This document shows positions 42,402 through 50,279 of a stretch of 50,279 nucleotides of DNA, piece after piece (positions within the stretch are counted from its first letter, which is position 1; every line of letters starts with the position of its first letter). The DNA is from Acidobacteriota bacterium (GTDB lineage Bacteria > Acidobacteriota > Aminicenantia > UBA2199). Under the pieces are notes generated by a model. That model saw only the letters and a program-made list of their open reading frames with translations, had not been told where the DNA came from and did not search any database. The stretch covers positions 1-50,279 of the forward strand of contig JAKLEC010000005.1 in the NCBI GenBank assembly GCA_022711715.1. Reading direction: 5' to 3'. The position numbers were made by a program, and so were the translations under genes.

Positions 42402-42861
42402 GCCCTTTCTCCGTCCATTCCTCCATGCCGCCCTTGAACAGCAGGAGGTTCTTCAGCCCTTGCGCCCACAGCCGGCGGGCCAGCTCCGGCGAATCGCCGC
42501 AGGTGCGGTCGCTGCAGTAGGCCACCAGCAGGCCGGCCCGGCGCAGACGCGGTTCGAGCGCCGGGAATGACCGGGAAAACTCCGCCAGCGGCAGGCTGAG
42601 GGCGCCGGGGATATGGCCGGCGCGGAAGGCCTCTCCGGCGCGGGCGTCGAGCAGCAGCGTGCCGGGGGCAGCGAGCACCGTGGCGACGAAATCGGCGTCG
42701 ACCTCGCCGATGGCGGCCGGCAGCGCGGCCTTCGCCTCCGGGGCCAGCGGCCGCAGCAGCGGCAGCTTCTCGCGCGCCAGGAAGTTGGCGCCCAGGCCCA
42801 GGGCCAGCGCGGCGGCGGCCAGGGCCAGCATGCGCAGCGCGTCCCTCCTGCCCGGCATCAT
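42385..42861 (-). CDS. membrane-anchored rhodanese-domain protein
   Basis: 158 residues. A signal anchor (about 9-28) is followed by one rhodanese domain (about 50-155) with LLLDARAGEAFRAGHIPGALSLPL and the active loop YCSDRTCGDS, where C116 is the catalytic cysteine and C121 a second one. It should carry sulfur or act in periplasmic thiol chemistry. It overlaps comM (ATGA) and the MauE-like gene, as fourth member of a five-gene operon. Confidence 0.85.
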   Translation of the reverse strand: MMPGRRDALRMLALAAAALALGLGANFLAREKLPLLRPLAPEAKAALPAAIGEVDADFVATVLAAPGTLLLDARAGEAFRAGHIPGALSLPLAEFSRSFPALEPRLRRAGLLVAYCSDRTCGDSPELARRLWAQGLKNLLLFKGGMEEWTEKGHDVER

Positions 42862-44363
42862 CCTCGTCCCTCCCAGAAGCGGCCGTTGTCCAGGGCACGG
42901 TACTGCAGCGCCTCCTGGACGTGCGCCGGGGCGATGCGCTCCGCCTCCTGCAGGTCGGCGATGGTGCGCGCCACCTTCAGCACGCGGAAATAGCCGCGGG
43001 CGCTCAAGTCGAAGCGCTCCGCGGCCCGCCGCAGCAGCCGCTCGCCCTCGTCGTCGAGCGGGCAGAAGCGGCGGATCTCGGGATTGCGCATCTGGGCGTT
43101 GGCGAACAGCCGGCGCTTCAGCCCGCGGAAGCGCTGTTCCTGGAGCGCGCGCGCCCGCGCCACCCGGGCGCGGACAACGGCCGAGCCCTCAGCCAGCGCC
43201 GGCGAGGTGATCTCCTCCAGCTTGACCTTCTTCACCTCAAGCTGCAGGTCGATGCGGTCCAGCAGCGGCTTGGAGAGCTTGGCCGCCGGTCCGCGGCCGG
43301 CGTCCGGGACGGGGTTCATGGCCGCCACCAGCATGAAGCGGGCCGGGAAGGTGGCCGAGGTGAGCGAGCGCGAGACCGTGATCTGGCCGTCCTCCATGGG
43401 TTGGCGCAGCACCTCCAGCGCCGATCTCTTGAAATAAGGGAGCTCGTCGAGGAAGAGGACGCCGTTATGCGCCAGGGAGATCTCGCCGGGCACGGGGACC
43501 TTGCCGCCGCCGCTGATGCCCACGTCGGAGATGGTGTGGTGCGGCGAGCGGAAGGGCCGGCGGCGCACCACCCCGCCGCGCTCTCCCAGCAGGCCGGCGG
43601 CGCTGTAGACGAGCGAGGTCTCCAGCACTTCGTCGTCGCTCATCTCGGGCAGGATCGAGGGCAGCGCCCGGGCGATCATCGACTTGCCCGCGCCGGCCGG
43701 GCCGATCATCAGAGCGTTGTGGGCGCCGGCGGCGGCGATCTCCATGGCGCGCTTGGCCAGGTACTGACCCTTGATCTCGGCGAAGTCGCCGTCGCCCGGG
43801 GCCGGCTCGGCGGACCGGGCAGCGCAGGCGCGCAGCGGCGCGTAACGCTCGGGGTGGGCGGCCAGGTCGACGACCTCGGCCAGGCTGCGCAGGGCGTAGA
43901 TCTCGATGCCGGAGACGAACTGCGCCTCATGGCGGTTGCCCCAGGGGATGACGATGCCGCGCCAGCCGTTGCGGCGGGCGAAGAGCGCGATGTTCAGCAC
44001 CCCCTTGACCGGGCTCAGCTCGCCGGTGAGGTTCAGCTCGCCGTAGAACAGCAGCTCGGAGAATGCCGCCCCTTCCAGGCGCAGGTGGTTGCGCACGATG
44101 CCCACGGCCATCGGCAGGTCGAGCCCCGCCCCCTCCTTGCGCACGTCGGCCGGCGAGAGGTTGACGACGATCTTCAGCGCCGGCGGGTACTCGAAGTTGG
44201 CGTTCTGGATGGCCAGGCGCAGCCGCTCGCGGCTCTCCTTGACGGCGTTGTCGGGCAGGCCGACGATGGCCATGCCCGGGATGCCGCGCGCGAAGCCGAC
44301 TTCGACCTCGGTGGCCACGACGTCGAGCCCGTTGAGCACCGCCGAATGGATGCGGCTGACCAC
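42858..44363 (-). CDS. comM: YifB/ComM-family Mg-chelatase-like AAA+ ATPase, cysteine cluster lost
   Basis: 501 residues from a GTG start directly after the transglycosylase stop. The N-terminal Lon-protease-like fold (GLPDNAVKESRERLRLAI...VNLSPADVRKEGAGLDLPMAVGI) and AAA+ core (IGPAGAGKSMIARALPSILP, RSPHHTISDVGISGGG, FLDELPYFKRSALEVLRQPMEDG) are complete. The usual NPCPCG...CxC zinc-like insert is shortened to NPVPDAGRGPAAKLSKPLLDRIDL, with no cysteines. ComM is a helicase that extends strand invasion in natural transformation. Its presence with pilus genes fits DNA uptake. The protein ends in EGRG. Confidence 0.92.
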   Translation of the reverse strand: MVSRIHSAVLNGLDVVATEVEVGFARGIPGMAIVGLPDNAVKESRERLRLAIQNANFEYPPALKIVVNLSPADVRKEGAGLDLPMAVGIVRNHLRLEGAAFSELLFYGELNLTGELSPVKGVLNIALFARRNGWRGIVIPWGNRHEAQFVSGIEIYALRSLAEVVDLAAHPERYAPLRACAARSAEPAPGDGDFAEIKGQYLAKRAMEIAAAGAHNALMIGPAGAGKSMIARALPSILPEMSDDEVLETSLVYSAAGLLGERGGVVRRRPFRSPHHTISDVGISGGGKVPVPGEISLAHNGVLFLDELPYFKRSALEVLRQPMEDGQITVSRSLTSATFPARFMLVAAMNPVPDAGRGPAAKLSKPLLDRIDLQLEVKKVKLEEITSPALAEGSAVVRARVARARALQEQRFRGLKRRLFANAQMRNPEIRRFCPLDDEGERLLRRAAERFDLSARGYFRVLKVARTIADLQEAERIAPAHVQEALQYRALDNGRFWEGRG

Positions 44364-45740
44364 CTACCCTCTCCCCGGGATGACGAGAGTCATGCCTGGC
44401 CGGATGAGGGTCGAGCGCAGGCGGTTTGCCTCCTGGATGCGGCGCACCGACGTGCCGTAGCGGCGGGCGATGGTGGAGAGCGTGTCGCCGGGGCGCACGC
44501 GGTGGGAGTTGAACTTGGGGATCTTCGCCGGCGGGATCCGCTCCAGCCCGGCCAGCGCCGCATCGTCGACCGTCGCCGGCACGCGCAGCGCATACTCGCT
44601 GACGAAGCTGGGGGTGAAGTCGCGCAACAGCTCGGGATTGAGGCGCTTCAGCTCGGCGACCGGCAGCTGCAGGCGCCCGGCGACGGCCGCCAGGTAGACC
44701 GGCGAGGGCACGACGACCGTCCGGCTGCCGGCCAGCAGCGGCTCGCCGCCGCCGACGGCGAAGCCGTACTCCTGCGGCGAGCGGGCGATGATCAGCGAGG
44801 CCAGGAATGCCGGCACGTAGTTCTTCGTCTCGCGGCGGATGTGGCGGCTCTGGTTGATGGTGAAGAAATCGGCGGTCTGCAGGGCGCGCATGGCCTTCTC
44901 CACCCGGCGCGGGCCGCCGTTGTAACAGGCCAGGGCGATGTACCAGTCGCCGTACTCCTCGTACAGGTGCTTGAGGAAGCGGGCCGCGGCATCGGCGGCC
45001 TTGAAGGGATCGAGCCGCTCGTCGACCTGCCAGTCGACGCGCAGGCCGAACAGGCGCGCCGTCGAGGACATGAACTGCCAGGCGCCGCGGGCGCGGGCGC
45101 GCGAGGTGGCGTCGACGCGGAAGCCGCTCTCGATGATCGGCAGGTAGGCCAGGTCCTCGGGGATGCCGTGGCGGCGGAAGATCTCCTGGAAGGGGCCGAT
45201 GAACTCGCCCATGCGGTCGAGGGCGCGCTGGATGCCGTCGTGGCGGATGGTCTGGAAGGCCTTCAGGAAGGAAACCACCTGGGGGTTGACGATGACCGGC
45301 AGGCTGTAGGCGACGGCGGCGCCTTCGCCCACCTTCTGCTGCAGGTCCTGGACGTCCTTCTCCGAGGGCAGGAAGAGCGGCGTGGCGATCACCTGGTCGA
45401 GGAAGGCCTCGTGCTCGCCGTTCTCGGGGCTGTTGCGGTCCTTCAGGGTGTTCAGCTCGATAGCCGATATCTTCCTGACCAGGTCGCCCACCTCGGCGCG
45501 ACCGGGGCCGTCGGCGCCGGCGTCGAGCAGGACGTCCAGCGACTGGTCGAAGCAGGCCTTGGCGCCGGCCATGTCGCCCTTTTCCAGGCGCGCCTTGCCG
45601 GTCTGGAAGATGGCCTCGGCCCGCGCCGCCGGGCCGGCAGCGGTTGCCGGGCCGGGGGCGGTGCGCGGCGCCGGACGCGACGGTGCGCAGGCAACGGCGG
45701 CGGCGGCCAGCAGCAGCAGCGGGATTCTAGCCTTTGACAT
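44364..45740 (-). CDS. MltD-like lytic transglycosylase lipoprotein with LysM
   Basis: 458 residues. A lipoprotein signal ends at C18 (AAAVAC). A helical region (about 40-170) precedes the SLT domain (YLPIIESGFRVDATSRARARGAWQFMSSTARLFGLRVDWQVDERLDP, YNGGPRRVEKA), where E of IIESGF is catalytic. One LysM domain closes the protein (HRVRPGDTLSTIARRYGTSVRRIQEANRLRSTLIRPGMTLVIP). It cleaves peptidoglycan; one job could be opening the wall for pili. It overlaps the GTPase gene by 14 bases. Confidence 0.9.
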   Translation of the reverse strand: MSKARIPLLLLAAAAVACAPSRPAPRTAPGPATAAGPAARAEAIFQTGKARLEKGDMAGAKACFDQSLDVLLDAGADGPGRAEVGDLVRKISAIELNTLKDRNSPENGEHEAFLDQVIATPLFLPSEKDVQDLQQKVGEGAAVAYSLPVIVNPQVVSFLKAFQTIRHDGIQRALDRMGEFIGPFQEIFRRHGIPEDLAYLPIIESGFRVDATSRARARGAWQFMSSTARLFGLRVDWQVDERLDPFKAADAAARFLKHLYEEYGDWYIALACYNGGPRRVEKAMRALQTADFFTINQSRHIRRETKNYVPAFLASLIIARSPQEYGFAVGGGEPLLAGSRTVVVPSPVYLAAVAGRLQLPVAELKRLNPELLRDFTPSFVSEYALRVPATVDDAALAGLERIPPAKIPKFNSHRVRPGDTLSTIARRYGTSVRRIQEANRLRSTLIRPGMTLVIPGRG

Positions 45741-46728
45741 CCAGGATGATGGTGACCTTTTTGGTCTCGGGACGCAGGGTGATGTCGAGGGAGCGCAGCG
45801 AGCGGCCTTGGCCGTCCTTGACCTCCACCGCCAGGCGGCCGTTGGCCGCGGCGATCTTTTCGATGCGCGTGATGCGCGTCGGGTCCTCCAGGCCGCCGAA
45901 CATGTCGTTCACCGAGCGGCCCGCGGCGGGGCGCGACGCGGCGGCGGGGGGCTGGGCGGCGGCCTTCTCGTCGCCGGTCGGCGGGGCGGCGGGAGCCGGC
46001 GGCAGCACCTCCTGCCCGGCCTGGCGGGCCTGAAGCTGCTCGACGCTCACCTTCTTCATCGGCAGGTCCTCCATCTTGACCATGCGCTGCCCTTCCTTGA
46101 CGTCGAACTGGACGGCCACGCTGCGCCCCGCGCGCGTCGAATGGTCCAGCGCCTCCTTGACCCGCCCCAGGGTCAGGGAGGAGATCTCGCGCAGGGTCTC
46201 GATGACGCCGCGGCCGCTGCGGGCGACGGCCTCGAAATGGGGGCGGCCCGACTGGTTGAGGCTGGCGTTCATCCGTTCCACCGGCGAGATGTTCCTCAGG
46301 TCGCGCTTGTTGTACTGGAAGACCATGGGCATGTCGTCGATGCGGTACGAATAGAATCCCAGGTTCTCCCGCAGGTTGTCGAGGCTCTCGCGGTTGGCCT
46401 GCTCCATCAGCTCCTGGGAATCGGCGACGAAGACGACGCCGTCGGCGCCCTTGAGGACCAGCTTGCGCGTCGAGTCGTAGAAGACCTGGCCGGGAACGGT
46501 GTACAGCTGGAAGCGCGTCTCGTAGCCCTTGACCAGGCCGACGTTGATGGGCAGCAGGTCGAAGAAGAGGGTGCGCTCGATCTCGGTCTCCATGCACACC
46601 AGCTCGCCGCGGGTGCGCGGGTTGGTCACCGAATAGATGTACTGCAGGTTGGTGGTCTTTCCGCCCAGGCCGGTGCCGTAATAGACGATCTTGGCGGTCA
46701 CCTGCTTGGACGTATGGTTGATCAGCAT
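45727..46728 (-). CDS. mglA: MglA-family Ras-like GTPase with a C-terminal extension
   Basis: 333 residues from the ATG at 46728. The GTPase domain (1-about 195) matches MglA: INHTSKQVTAKIVYYGTGLGGKTTNLQYIY (P-loop at 18-26), TVPGQVFYDSTRKLVLKGADGVVFVADSQ (G3 at 77-81) and YNKRD (140-143). MglA sets cell polarity and pilus switching. MglA is normally about 195 residues; here a Pro/Ala-rich linker and a beta-rich domain (about 265-333, DMFGGLEDPTRITRIEKIAAANGRLAVEV...KKVTIILDV) are added. The upstream ATG at 46758 is rejected because the promoter's -10 lies within those codons. First gene of the five-gene operon. Confidence 0.85.
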   Translation of the reverse strand: MLINHTSKQVTAKIVYYGTGLGGKTTNLQYIYSVTNPRTRGELVCMETEIERTLFFDLLPINVGLVKGYETRFQLYTVPGQVFYDSTRKLVLKGADGVVFVADSQELMEQANRESLDNLRENLGFYSYRIDDMPMVFQYNKRDLRNISPVERMNASLNQSGRPHFEAVARSGRGVIETLREISSLTLGRVKEALDHSTRAGRSVAVQFDVKEGQRMVKMEDLPMKKVSVEQLQARQAGQEVLPPAPAAPPTGDEKAAAQPPAAASRPAAGRSVNDMFGGLEDPTRITRIEKIAAANGRLAVEVKDGQGRSLRSLDITLRPETKKVTIILDVKG

Positions 46729-46748
46729 CGCGTTCTTTATCCCGACCG

Positions 46749-46777
46749 ATTTTCCCATGTTTCAGGGCACAAGTCAA
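46749..46777 (-). promoter_or_regulatory. promoter of the mglA operon
   Basis: Minus strand TTGACT (46777-46772), 17 nt, GAAAAT (46754-46749; 4 of 6 matches). It sits 20 nt before the ATG at 46728 and helps decide that start. Confidence 0.5.
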
Positions 46778-46978: not shown

Positions 46979-49834
46979 CTAAAAGTCAAAGCCGATCCAG
47001 AAATTGACCCCGTTGTACGTCTTCTGCTTCAGGTCGGTGCGCCAGACCCACTCGACGTGGAAGGGATAGCCGAAGAGGAAGAACTCGACGCCGTAGCCGT
47101 AGGAGGAGAGGGCGTCGCGCAGCCGGAACTCCCCCTTCTCGAAGACGCGGAACTCCTGGCCGTGGAACCACAGGGCGCCGAGGTCGAAGAAAAACACGCC
47201 GCGCACGGGGCCGATGACGCCGATGGGGGTCAGGGCGGCGTGGACCAGCGGGAAGCGGAACTCGGCGTTGAAGAAGAATCCCTTGTTGCCCACCAGCGAG
47301 CGGAACTCGGCGCCACGCATGCTGTTGTTGCCGCCACTCCAGAAGAGCAGGGCGTTTTTGCCCCCCGAGTAGTAGCCGCTCAGGCGGAAGGCCAGCAGCG
47401 AGTGATTGTCCAGGCGCAGATACTTGCGGAAGTCACCCTCCAAGGTGTAGGCGTCCATCGACTTGGAGAACAGCTTGACGAACTTGGCGGCGCTGAGCCG
47501 GAAGGTGGTGCCGCTGTTGGGGCCGTACTCGGCGAAGCGCGTGGTCTCGGCCGTCAGCGACGCCTCCAGCGGCAGGGCGAAGCCGTTGAAGAACTGGCCG
47601 TAGGGCAGCTCGTGGCCGTAGTAGAACAGGTCGGAATCCTCGTCCTGGTGGTAGGCCGACAGCGTGAGCTCGGCGCGCAGCGAGCGGCTGAAGGGGTAAA
47701 TGAGGGAGAAGTCGCCGCCGATGCGGCTGCGCAGCGTCAGGAACAGGTTGTTGGTATAGGGAATGTAGTAGGCGTCGCTCTCGGAAAAAAGGTGGCTGTA
47801 GAACTGCAGGCGGCGGCGCTGGTTGAGGTAGGCCAGGTGATAGGAGCGGTAGCCGTAGTAGGAGGCGAGGTAGAAGACGAAGTTGTGGTCGCCCAGCATG
47901 TCGGTCACATTGAGGTAGGAGGAGCCGTAGAAGCCGCCGTTGGTGTCGATGCCCACGTTGATGGGCGGCAGCGAGGTGACGATCAGCTTCTCGAAGGGCT
48001 TGTACGCCTTCACCTCCAGCGCCGGCGGCACGGCGGCCGCGGCCTCGCCGGTCAGCTGCGGGGCGGGGGCGGCCGGCTGGGGCGGCAGGAACTCCGCCGC
48101 CTGCTCGGCCAGGGCGGGCTGCAGGTCCTTCTGGAACAGCAGGAAACTGCCCTTGTGGTAGGAGGAGATGACCAGCCGGCCCTGGCCGCCGGGGATTTCC
48201 ACCGGGAAGAAGTTGCCAGTGCGCACGTCGCTGTGGCGGCGGAAGACGCGGTTCTCCAGGTCCAGCGAGCAGATGTTGTAGGCGCCGAGCTCGTCGGAGC
48301 TGTAGTAGACCGTCTTGCCGTCCAGGGAGAAGGCGGGGGCGATATCGTTGAAGTCGCCGCGCGTCAGCTGCAGGGCCTGGTCGGGGCCGTCGCTGGGGGC
48401 CAGGAACAGCCGGTCGAAGCCGTTGGCCGTGGCCGAGTAGACGACGCGCCCGCCGTCGGCGGAGATGTCGACGGCCTTGACGTAGGTGCGGCCGTCAGTC
48501 CGCTTGCGCACCGCGCCGCTCTCCAGGTCGAGCTCGTAGAGGAACGAGCGGATGCCCTCCACGCCGGTGAAGAGCAGGGAGTTGCGCCGCGGGTGGAAGA
48601 CCGGCGAGCTGGCCTTCTGGATCTCGGGAACGCGGACCTGGCGCACGACGCGGTTGTCGAGGGCGTTGAGCACGACCAGGTAGGTGTCGAGCTCCTTGCG
48701 CGCGAAGAAGGCGACGTTCTCGCCCTGGCGGTCCCAGCAGAAGGAGCGGCCGTCGGCGGGCAGGAACTTGAAGTCGATGCCGTCGTAGGTGGACTGGAAG
48801 CCCGGGGTGACGTTCTTGATCACCTTGCCGTCCTTGAGCGAGAGCAGGACGATGTCGATCTTGTAGGTGCGGTAGTTCACGGTGACGACGGCCAGCAGCT
48901 CGCCGCCGGGCGAGACCTGGTGCGAGAACGAGTAGGCGAAGGGGAAGTCGGGGCCGATGACGAAGCTGTAGTCCTCGGGGTTCTCGCGGCCGGCGAAGGC
49001 GCGGAAGCGCTCGCGGGCGTACTTCTTGAACTCGAAGTTGAAGGTCTTGGGCGAGGAATAGTTGAATTGCTCCAGGAAGGAGCGGCGCTTGCCGATCAGC
49101 GCCGGCCGCCGCTGGCTCTGCAGCAGGTCGCGGACCCCCTTCTTGCCGAACTTCTCGTAGAAGAACTCGTACATCAGGTGGCCGAAGTCGTAGGCCACGC
49201 GGTTGCTGGAGGAGGCGGAAGCGATGTCGCCGTCCTCCTGCACCTCGGGCATGCGGTCGCTGAGCACGGCGTCGATGACGGTCATCAGGTTGAAGCTCTC
49301 CCAATGGCCGGTCACGAAGTCGGCGAAGCCCTCCAGCACCCAGTCAGGCGGGCGGTTGTAGTCGAACATGCCCGCCGAGCGGTTCTTGTAGAGGATGGCG
49401 TACTCGAAGATGTGCGCGAGCTCGTGGCTGATCAGCCGCCCCAGGTCCTCGCTGGTGCGGTTGCCGTAGATGACCACGCGGTTGCCGACCGGCTCGGCGA
49501 AGCCCTCGAAGCTGCCGGGGGCGATGAGGCCCGGATAGAGGTTGGTCTGCTCCAGATCGGTCTGCTTGTTGTAGAAGATGATCGGCGTGCGTTCCTCGAT
49601 GTTCACGTTCAGCAGCGAGGAGAGCTTCTCGTAGGCCTTCTCGGCCTCGACGGCGATGCGCTGCAGCAGGTCCCTGTCCTCCATGTAATGGAAGATGCGG
49701 AAATGCTTGGTGTCGGCGTGCTTCCAGGGGAAGGCGCGCTGCACCACCTTGTTCTTGCCGTAATAATAAGAATACTGGGCGCCCAGGGAGGCGGCCCACA
49801 GGAACGCGGCCAGGGCGACGATCGTTCTTTTCAT
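46979..49834 (-). CDS. protease-propeller-barrel fusion: gluzincin, TolB-like propeller, BamA-like outer-membrane barrel
   Basis: 951 residues. A signal peptide (1-19) is followed by a zinc peptidase domain (about 40-250) with HELAH (137-141) and a third ligand E168 (WVLEGFADF), resembling Peptidase_MA/gluzincins. A TolB/PD40-like propeller covers about 275-590 (SHQVSPGGELLAVV, DISADGGRVVYSAT, APAFSLDGKTVYYSSD). After a Pro/Ala-rich linker (about 592-625), residues about 640-951 show alternating beta strands with GVIGPVRGVFFFDLGALW and an aromatic C-terminal Phe, as in BamA/surface-antigen barrels. Probably anchored in the outer membrane with periplasmic or surface protease. AGGAGGG precedes the ATG; the next gene upstream ends 9 nt away. 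Confidence 0.85.
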   Translation of the reverse strand: MKRTIVALAAFLWAASLGAQYSYYYGKNKVVQRAFPWKHADTKHFRIFHYMEDRDLLQRIAVEAEKAYEKLSSLLNVNIEERTPIIFYNKQTDLEQTNLYPGLIAPGSFEGFAEPVGNRVVIYGNRTSEDLGRLISHELAHIFEYAILYKNRSAGMFDYNRPPDWVLEGFADFVTGHWESFNLMTVIDAVLSDRMPEVQEDGDIASASSSNRVAYDFGHLMYEFFYEKFGKKGVRDLLQSQRRPALIGKRRSFLEQFNYSSPKTFNFEFKKYARERFRAFAGRENPEDYSFVIGPDFPFAYSFSHQVSPGGELLAVVTVNYRTYKIDIVLLSLKDGKVIKNVTPGFQSTYDGIDFKFLPADGRSFCWDRQGENVAFFARKELDTYLVVLNALDNRVVRQVRVPEIQKASSPVFHPRRNSLLFTGVEGIRSFLYELDLESGAVRKRTDGRTYVKAVDISADGGRVVYSATANGFDRLFLAPSDGPDQALQLTRGDFNDIAPAFSLDGKTVYYSSDELGAYNICSLDLENRVFRRHSDVRTGNFFPVEIPGGQGRLVISSYHKGSFLLFQKDLQPALAEQAAEFLPPQPAAPAPQLTGEAAAAVPPALEVKAYKPFEKLIVTSLPPINVGIDTNGGFYGSSYLNVTDMLGDHNFVFYLASYYGYRSYHLAYLNQRRRLQFYSHLFSESDAYYIPYTNNLFLTLRSRIGGDFSLIYPFSRSLRAELTLSAYHQDEDSDLFYYGHELPYGQFFNGFALPLEASLTAETTRFAEYGPNSGTTFRLSAAKFVKLFSKSMDAYTLEGDFRKYLRLDNHSLLAFRLSGYYSGGKNALLFWSGGNNSMRGAEFRSLVGNKGFFFNAEFRFPLVHAALTPIGVIGPVRGVFFFDLGALWFHGQEFRVFEKGEFRLRDALSSYGYGVEFFLFGYPFHVEWVWRTDLKQKTYNGVNFWIGFDF

Positions 49835-49843
49835 GGAGCCCTC

Positions 49844-50279
49844 CTACCGGCCCAGGATGTGTCGTTCCTGCTCCGTTTTGCGCGGCTGCAGGGCGGCGGT
49901 CAGCCTGGCGGCGAGCTTGGCGAACATGCTGCTGAAGGTGAAGCGCGCTGTGGCGCCGGCGACGGGCTCGCCCTTCTCGGCGTAGGTCTCCTGCCAGAGG
50001 AGGCGCCGGGCATCGCCGTCGATCAGCCCGACCTGCATTTCCATCTCCCACATCTCGACCGTGTCGTACACGTTCTTGCTTTTCCCCGCCTCGTCGCGGC
50101 CTTCGCGGATGACCCCCATCTTCTTGACGTTCAGCTTCAGGCGGCCGGCGAAGAACAGCCCCTGCGGGTGGGCGCGGAAGACGCGCTGGAAGAAGAGGCT
50201 GTCGGCGTACTGGATGTCCACGGCCAGGCGGTAGCGCCGCAGGGTGGCCAGGATGTCGGCCCAGTGCTCGGGCTCGAGG
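49844..50279 (-). CDS. C-terminal part of an uncharacterised envelope protein (partial)
   Basis: The gene enters from the right edge; about 145 codons are visible and the start lies outside. The segment begins LEPEHWADILATLRRYRLAVDIQYADSLFFQRVFRAHPQ, and continues with beta-strand patterns RLKLNVKKMGVI and EMWEMEMQVGLID. That pattern recalls lipoproteins whose C-terminal half handles an envelope partner, but I cannot name a family. It ends 9 nt before the barrel-fusion gene and is presumably co-transcribed with it. Confidence 0.6.
   Translation of the reverse strand, partial: LEPEHWADILATLRRYRLAVDIQYADSLFFQRVFRAHPQGLFFAGRLKLNVKKMGVIREGRDEAGKSKNVYDTVEMWEMEMQVGLIDGDARRLLWQETYAEKGEPVAGATARFTFSSMFAKLAARLTAALQPRKTEQERHILGR

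Follow-up and report, generated by a model that had tools for sequence, protein, structure and literature searches.

The window analysed here, a stretch of 50,279 nucleotides, belongs to contig JAKLEC010000005.1 of the assembly GCA_022711715.1, from a Candidatus Aminicenantes (Acidobacteriota) bacterium. On its minus strand lies a gene for a 951-residue protein in which a signal peptide, a zinc protease of gluzincin type, a TolB-like propeller and an Omp85-type barrel are carried in a single chain (Table 1). As the sequence-only reading had proposed, this is one intact gene; it starts with ATG, and its ribosome-binding site (GGAGGG) stands directly behind the stop codon of the upstream gene. 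That stop codon, 9 nt before the fusion, ends a gene for a secreted protein or lipoprotein of ~225 residues. Of the partner genes described below, which the sequence-only reading had missed, only this part of one falls within the window, and the gene is complete in L007, L013 and other loci. Downstream of the fusion, on the same strand, genes for a Ras/MglA-like GTPase, a lytic transglycosylase with LysM and, further on, a ComM-like ATPase make up a group spanning 42858-46758, in which the GTPase and the transglycosylase are conserved in close relatives.

Table 1. Features at the fusion locus, in positions of the window
Feature	Positions	Strand	Evidence
Single 951-aa gene: signal peptide, gluzincin protease, TolB-like propeller, Omp85 barrel	46979..49834	-	Open reading frame, profiles, intact homologues
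Signal peptide, residues 1-19, MKRTIVALAAFLWAASLGA/QYS, without lipobox	49778..49834	-	Sequence read by eye
Zinc protease domain, residues 30-300	48935..49747	-	Profile A4, gluzincins only in the PDB; Peptidase_MA_2, sub-threshold; fold search
HELAH zinc-binding motif, residues 137-141	49412..49426	-	H137, E138 and H141 invariant in 55/55
E168 in WVLEG, third zinc ligand	49331..49333	-	Invariant in 55/55; aligned with the ligand Glu of collagenase G
TolB-like beta-propeller, ~residues 301-575	48110..48934	-	PD40, TolB chains, TIGR02800, Foldseek
Pro/Ala-rich linker, ~residues 576-623	47966..48109	-	Sequence; length variation among homologues near residue 599
Omp85-type beta-barrel, ~residues 624-951, aromatic end ...WIGFDF	46982..47965	-	Pfam, BamA profile, indel pattern
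R840-G841 at the position of the loop-6 signature (V/I)RG(F/Y)	47312..47317	-	R840 invariant; aligned to VRGF of BamA
3' part of the gene for the ~225-aa secreted protein or lipoprotein, 5' end off the contig	49844..50278	-	Profile A2 match, 2.1e-35
Ras/MglA-like GTPase	45727..46758	-	
Lytic transglycosylase with LysM	44364..45740	-	
ComM-like ATPase	42858..44363	-	

Domain matches and the zinc site

Two Pfam families matched the fusion protein above their gathering scores, namely Omp85 (residues 703-951, E 2.8e-10) and the propeller repeat PD40 (residues 489-522, E 1.1e-7), and Peptidase_MA_2 matched residues 64-241 below its cut-off (E 0.005), as it did again in relatives. Partial NCBIfam matches were obtained to the TolB propeller (TIGR02800, 6e-14), to BamA and to an HExxH family, and a sequence search of the PDB with the propeller returned TolB chains (E 7e-10). 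The protein is not a full-length TolB equivalog, its NCBIfam score of 51.8 bits lying below the cut-off of 343. No POTRA domain was matched in the fusion by Pfam or NCBIfam, and no M48 or TPR domain by Pfam. A patatin-like domain was likewise looked for with Pfam and NCBIfam and none was found, so that the fusion lacks the combination of patatin and POTRA domains that marks type Vd proteins.

Domain profiles were built from 38 homologues. In the PDB, the protease profile (A4) matched gluzincins only, these being peptidase domains of M9 collagenases and an M1 aminopeptidase (best 3e-4), and in the collagenase alignments printed, the HExxH motif and the downstream Glu of the fusion align with the zinc ligands. 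H137, E138, H141, W165, E168, G169, Y215 and G218 are invariant when 48 orthologues and 7 paralogues are aligned; the pairing of HExxH with a downstream Glu, by which gluzincins of clan MA are recognised, is thus present as H137/E138/H141 and E168 in every sequence. One could suppose from the sub-threshold Pfam match that the domain is a non-catalytic scaffold with a structural zinc site, but E138 and all ligands are kept throughout these divergent sequences, which would be unusual if the site were not catalytic, and we regard such a scaffold as very improbable.

Structure prediction, which the sequence-only reading had named as a check, gave weak models. For the protease domain (alignment A5, 11 close relatives) the AlphaFold model reached a pLDDT of 49.6; a Foldseek search with it returned only gluzincins among its best 50 matches (best E 9e-4, TM 0.36), which is supportive of a gluzincin fold, not proof of one. 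The full-length model (A1, 12 close relatives) was poor, at pLDDT 42 overall and ~22 in the barrel, which was left unresolved, and TolB ranked first in the Foldseek search made with it. The models therefore did not confirm the folds or the superposition of the zinc site. By sequence, the remaining domain assignments of that reading, from the signal peptide and the HELAH/E168 protease to the TolB-like propeller and the BamA-like barrel, all held, and its outer-membrane-tethered zinc protease is well supported as a prediction.

Barrel topology and the side of the membrane

All 39 PDB matches of the barrel profile (38 rows) were Omp85 proteins, the best being BamA (4e-14), and the BamA alignment spans the C-terminal two thirds of the barrel. 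Of the features by which the Omp85 superfamily is recognised, a C-terminal barrel of Omp85 type and an RG motif in loop 6 were found; a POTRA domain, which had no match, is typical of the superfamily but is not needed in the non-POTRA subfamilies of the 2014 classification. Within the barrel, P714, R720, Y805, A815, G825, R840, E858, R860 and P862 are invariant across the 48 orthologues and 7 paralogues. By our own strand assignment, made by alignment to BamA, strand 11 lies directly before R840 and five more strands run up to the WIGFDF end, for a total of 16 when the earlier ones are counted back. Insertions of at least three residues occur after residues 631, 661, 694, 735, 788 and 828/843, at 892-900 and after 935. 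Each of these sites lies in one of the eight hairpins that share the side of loop 6, and the turns on the opposite side have none. Loop 6 of BamA is extracellular. Since all barrel indels lie on this side, the N-terminus of the fusion should be periplasmic, and the even strand number together with a periplasmic C-terminus should likewise place the protease-propeller part in the periplasm. Both termini are probably periplasmic, judging from this alignment and indel pattern, and the protease would most likely work at the periplasmic side of the outer membrane.

This arrangement bears on the suggestion, made in the sequence-only reading, that the protein presents or secretes itself, perhaps as a peptide harvester. 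In such an explanation, the barrel exports the protease-propeller part to the cell surface, where it harvests peptides or sheds surface proteins. The signal peptide and barrel would suit it, as would the Pro/Ala linker of ~48 residues, which is long enough that length alone would permit passage through the barrel; in addition, the catalytic domain is similar to those of secreted collagenases and aminopeptidases, and a Salinibacter protease-propeller protein of the same kind has no barrel. Against it, the topology of Omp85 proteins leaves the N-terminal part on the periplasmic side, and the precedent for self-secretion has changed: PlpD, a patatin-Omp85 protein and the best-studied fusion of an enzyme with such a barrel, was once thought to secrete itself, but work from 2024 showed that its enzyme domain stays in the periplasm (PMC11116518). 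The two partner proteins described below are also expected to be periplasmic and co-occur tightly with the fusion. We consider a surface-exposed or self-secreted protease improbable; self-presentation runs counter to the barrel topology, and the peptide harvester is unsupported, given the periplasmic placement of the N-terminal protease by the barrel alignment and the indels. The envelope sheddase, also suggested in that reading, may fit if it is taken to mean cleavage within the periplasm.

Partner genes and proposed role

In most orthologues, two genes lie upstream of the fusion, mostly tightly spaced or overlapping, and in complete loci a TPR gene, its product mostly 105-150 aa long, comes first, followed by the ~225-aa gene and the fusion. 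The TPR and ~225-aa genes usually overlap, and the latter ends ~3 to 20 nt before the fusion; as the longest frame was used to set the start sites, these overlaps are maximum values. Many copies of both partner proteins read as lipoproteins and others as secreted only, a lipobox not being recognisable in every copy. A few orthologues (L043, L045 and L047) have no partner genes beside them, and a context search found neither beside any of the seven paralogues (L061-L067).

When 80 genomes were compared with the ~225-aa profile and the full fusion, 38 had both, 1 had the ~225-aa gene only, 1 had the fusion only and 40 had neither (Fisher p 2e-20, a value that ignores shared ancestry and so overstates independence). 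The ~225-aa gene stands directly upstream of the fusion in 33 of the 38 co-occurring genomes and elsewhere in the other five, in at least two of which it has a TPR neighbour. Comparative sequence analysis establishes the architecture, the zinc ligands and the partner genes with their co-occurrence, and, on gene order and co-occurrence, the fusion, the TPR protein and the ~225-aa protein form a three-gene unit that is new here.

Among the exceptions, L076-L079 (genomes G014, G054, G028 and G041) carry the ~225-aa gene apart from a lone fusion, and obgE follows it in three of these four loci; in L077 it has an intact TPR gene as its neighbour, and in G014 a TPR match adjoins it. At L075 (G072 C15), the ~225-aa gene lies between relA/spoT-like and dnaN-like genes, with no orthologous fusion adjoining.

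The FlgT middle domain has a fold common to the N-terminal domain of TolB and CsgG. Weak matches to it appeared in 9 of 23 ~225-aa proteins (best 5.5e-5), so that this partner is possibly TolB-N/FlgT/CsgG-like, which we offer as a lead only. A PDB search with the ~225-aa profile gave no credible match, and HigB, U57 and other weak Pfam matches of this protein were regarded as noise.

We propose that the fusion and its two partners constitute a periplasmic zinc endopeptidase module anchored in the outer membrane and devoted to quality control or processing of envelope proteins, a reading to which we give even weight for and against. In this proposal, the barrel would fix the protein in the outer membrane, and the propeller beneath it would serve as a docking platform, occupying the position that POTRA domains and BamB have in a BAM complex. 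Envelope proteins held at the propeller would be cleaved by the N-terminal gluzincin domain, and the TPR protein and the ~225-aa protein would be the remaining members of the complex and would probably choose its substrates. The likeliest task would be to mature outer-membrane or exported proteins or to control their quality, in the way that BepA serves BAM. The proposal draws on the invariant zinc site and the gluzincin-only matches, the BamA-type barrel with its loop-6 motif and loop-6-side indels, the signal peptide without a lipobox, the upstream partner genes and their co-occurrence, and the precedents of PlpD (PMC11116518) and BepA (PMC13067283). Its periplasmic side, complex formation, catalysis and substrates are what we infer from these.

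The same barrel could instead make the fusion a dedicated insertase or translocon that assembles or exports clients, with the built-in protease trimming them and the partners acting as subunits like BamB-E. Its BamA-like barrel with the invariant R840 in loop 6, a propeller in the role of BamB and accessory genes as in a BAM complex fit this account, and a role like that of BamA with BamB was put forward for propeller-Omp85 proteins in the main text of Heinz and Lithgow (PMC4104836). The lack of a POTRA match in Pfam tells against it, as does PlpD, an Omp85 barrel that serves without known insertase work (PMC11116518); we hold an insertase or translocon to be rather unlikely, though less so than surface export. 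A machine joining both ideas, a three-component outer-membrane apparatus of Acidobacteriota that is made up of two partners and an Omp85 insertase or translocon with its own protease and that couples client insertion or export to cleavage, is a tentative thought that we would not expect to hold.

The envelope protease module, as the best-supported reading, is comparable with BepA of E. coli in role and not in family. BepA too is a periplasmic zinc protease linked to TPR and an Omp85 protein, with a part in outer-membrane protein quality control, but it belongs to the M48 family, has its TPR in the same chain and is unfused to a barrel, whereas the TPR of the fusion system is a separate protein. 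BepA acts on stalled proteins at BAM (PMC13067283). Little is understood of proteolysis at the outer membrane, and it is still debated how BepA, YcaL and LoiP reach and choose proteins during their folding on BAM (PMC13067283). A single complex in which a protease, a docking platform and an Omp85 barrel are kept in fixed order, with two dedicated partners, would allow this to be tested.

PlpD and FplA (type Vd) share with the fusion a signal peptide, an N-terminal hydrolase and an Omp85 barrel in one chain; they differ in having a patatin lipase in place of the zinc protease and a POTRA domain in place of the propeller, and we know of no partner genes of the TPR or ~225-aa kind for them. The fusion also bears on the roles of Omp85 barrels beyond insertion, which PlpD has reopened. 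Its propeller is of the same family as TolB, the best match in both Foldseek and PDB sequence searches, but TolB is a separate, soluble periplasmic protein. With BamA and the BAM lipoproteins, the system shares a homologous barrel, an accessory TPR protein that is BamD-like in kind and a propeller that is BamB-like in kind; unlike them, it lacks POTRA domains and has an added protease. The same genome encodes a canonical BamA (E 1e-135) and its own TolB (1e-113) elsewhere, so the fusion is an addition, and its having replaced either protein was rejected.

A calcineurin-like metallophosphoesterase family is what we take PF00149 to be, and a class assigned to it is therefore not the fusion described here. 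Such is the 'Omp85-metalloprotease' ('Metallo') class of the 2014 classification (PMC4104836, section 10), whose label may mislead readers seeking proteases. The WD40-Omp85 subfamily named in 2014 by Heinz and Lithgow is closer: according to the main text, it has a TolB-like propeller N-terminal to an Omp85 barrel and no POTRA domain, and a BamA-BamB-like role was suggested for it, but that text mentions no zinc protease or partner genes (PMC4104836). The sequence-only reading took the three domains to be usually separate proteins; this is partly outdated, as propeller-Omp85 fusions had been reported and the present fusion is common in Acidobacteriota. In the open-licence literature, we found no description of an Omp85 protein combined with a zinc peptidase and partner genes.

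Distribution and relatives

A match to the fusion was found at E <= 0.001 in 264 of 297 sampled Acidobacteriota genomes, many of these being matches to the propeller only; by our count, 147 genomes had a match at < 1e-20, and ~130 of these are in the range of full orthologues. The fusion is intact and conserved across independent genomes, which excludes an assembly artefact, and chance or a frameshift was rejected on the same ground. Large families within the phylum are without the entire set, which is thus dispensable for Acidobacteriota as a whole. To Acidobacteriota, which have few genetic models, it would add a conserved envelope system.

The paralogues L061-L067, also of Acidobacteriota, are protease-propeller-barrel proteins of ~1000-1040 aa with the same zinc ligands. 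Three of the four that were scanned matched Omp85 in Pfam, with the same protease and propeller, and a long branch separates the paralogues from the orthologues in the tree.

A scan of viral contigs found no homologue of the fusion, and a scan of plasmids found one match, in a Salinibacter record. This protein of Salinibacter ruber plasmid pSR116 (L068:4935-6833), encoded downstream of a zinc transporter gene and annotated 'basic secretory protein-like protein', shares the protease and propeller with the fusion (26.5% identity over residues 12-564 of the latter); it differs in its length of 633 aa and in having no barrel, and a context search found no partner genes beside it.

The scan of genome contigs returned records of Aminicenantes and other Acidobacteriota and one that is probably misnamed. 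In this record (L018, titled Chrysiogenales bacterium), the fusion, the GTPase and the lytic transglycosylase are ~79-83% identical to those of Aminicenantes loci, which suggests that the contig was probably misnamed or misbinned.
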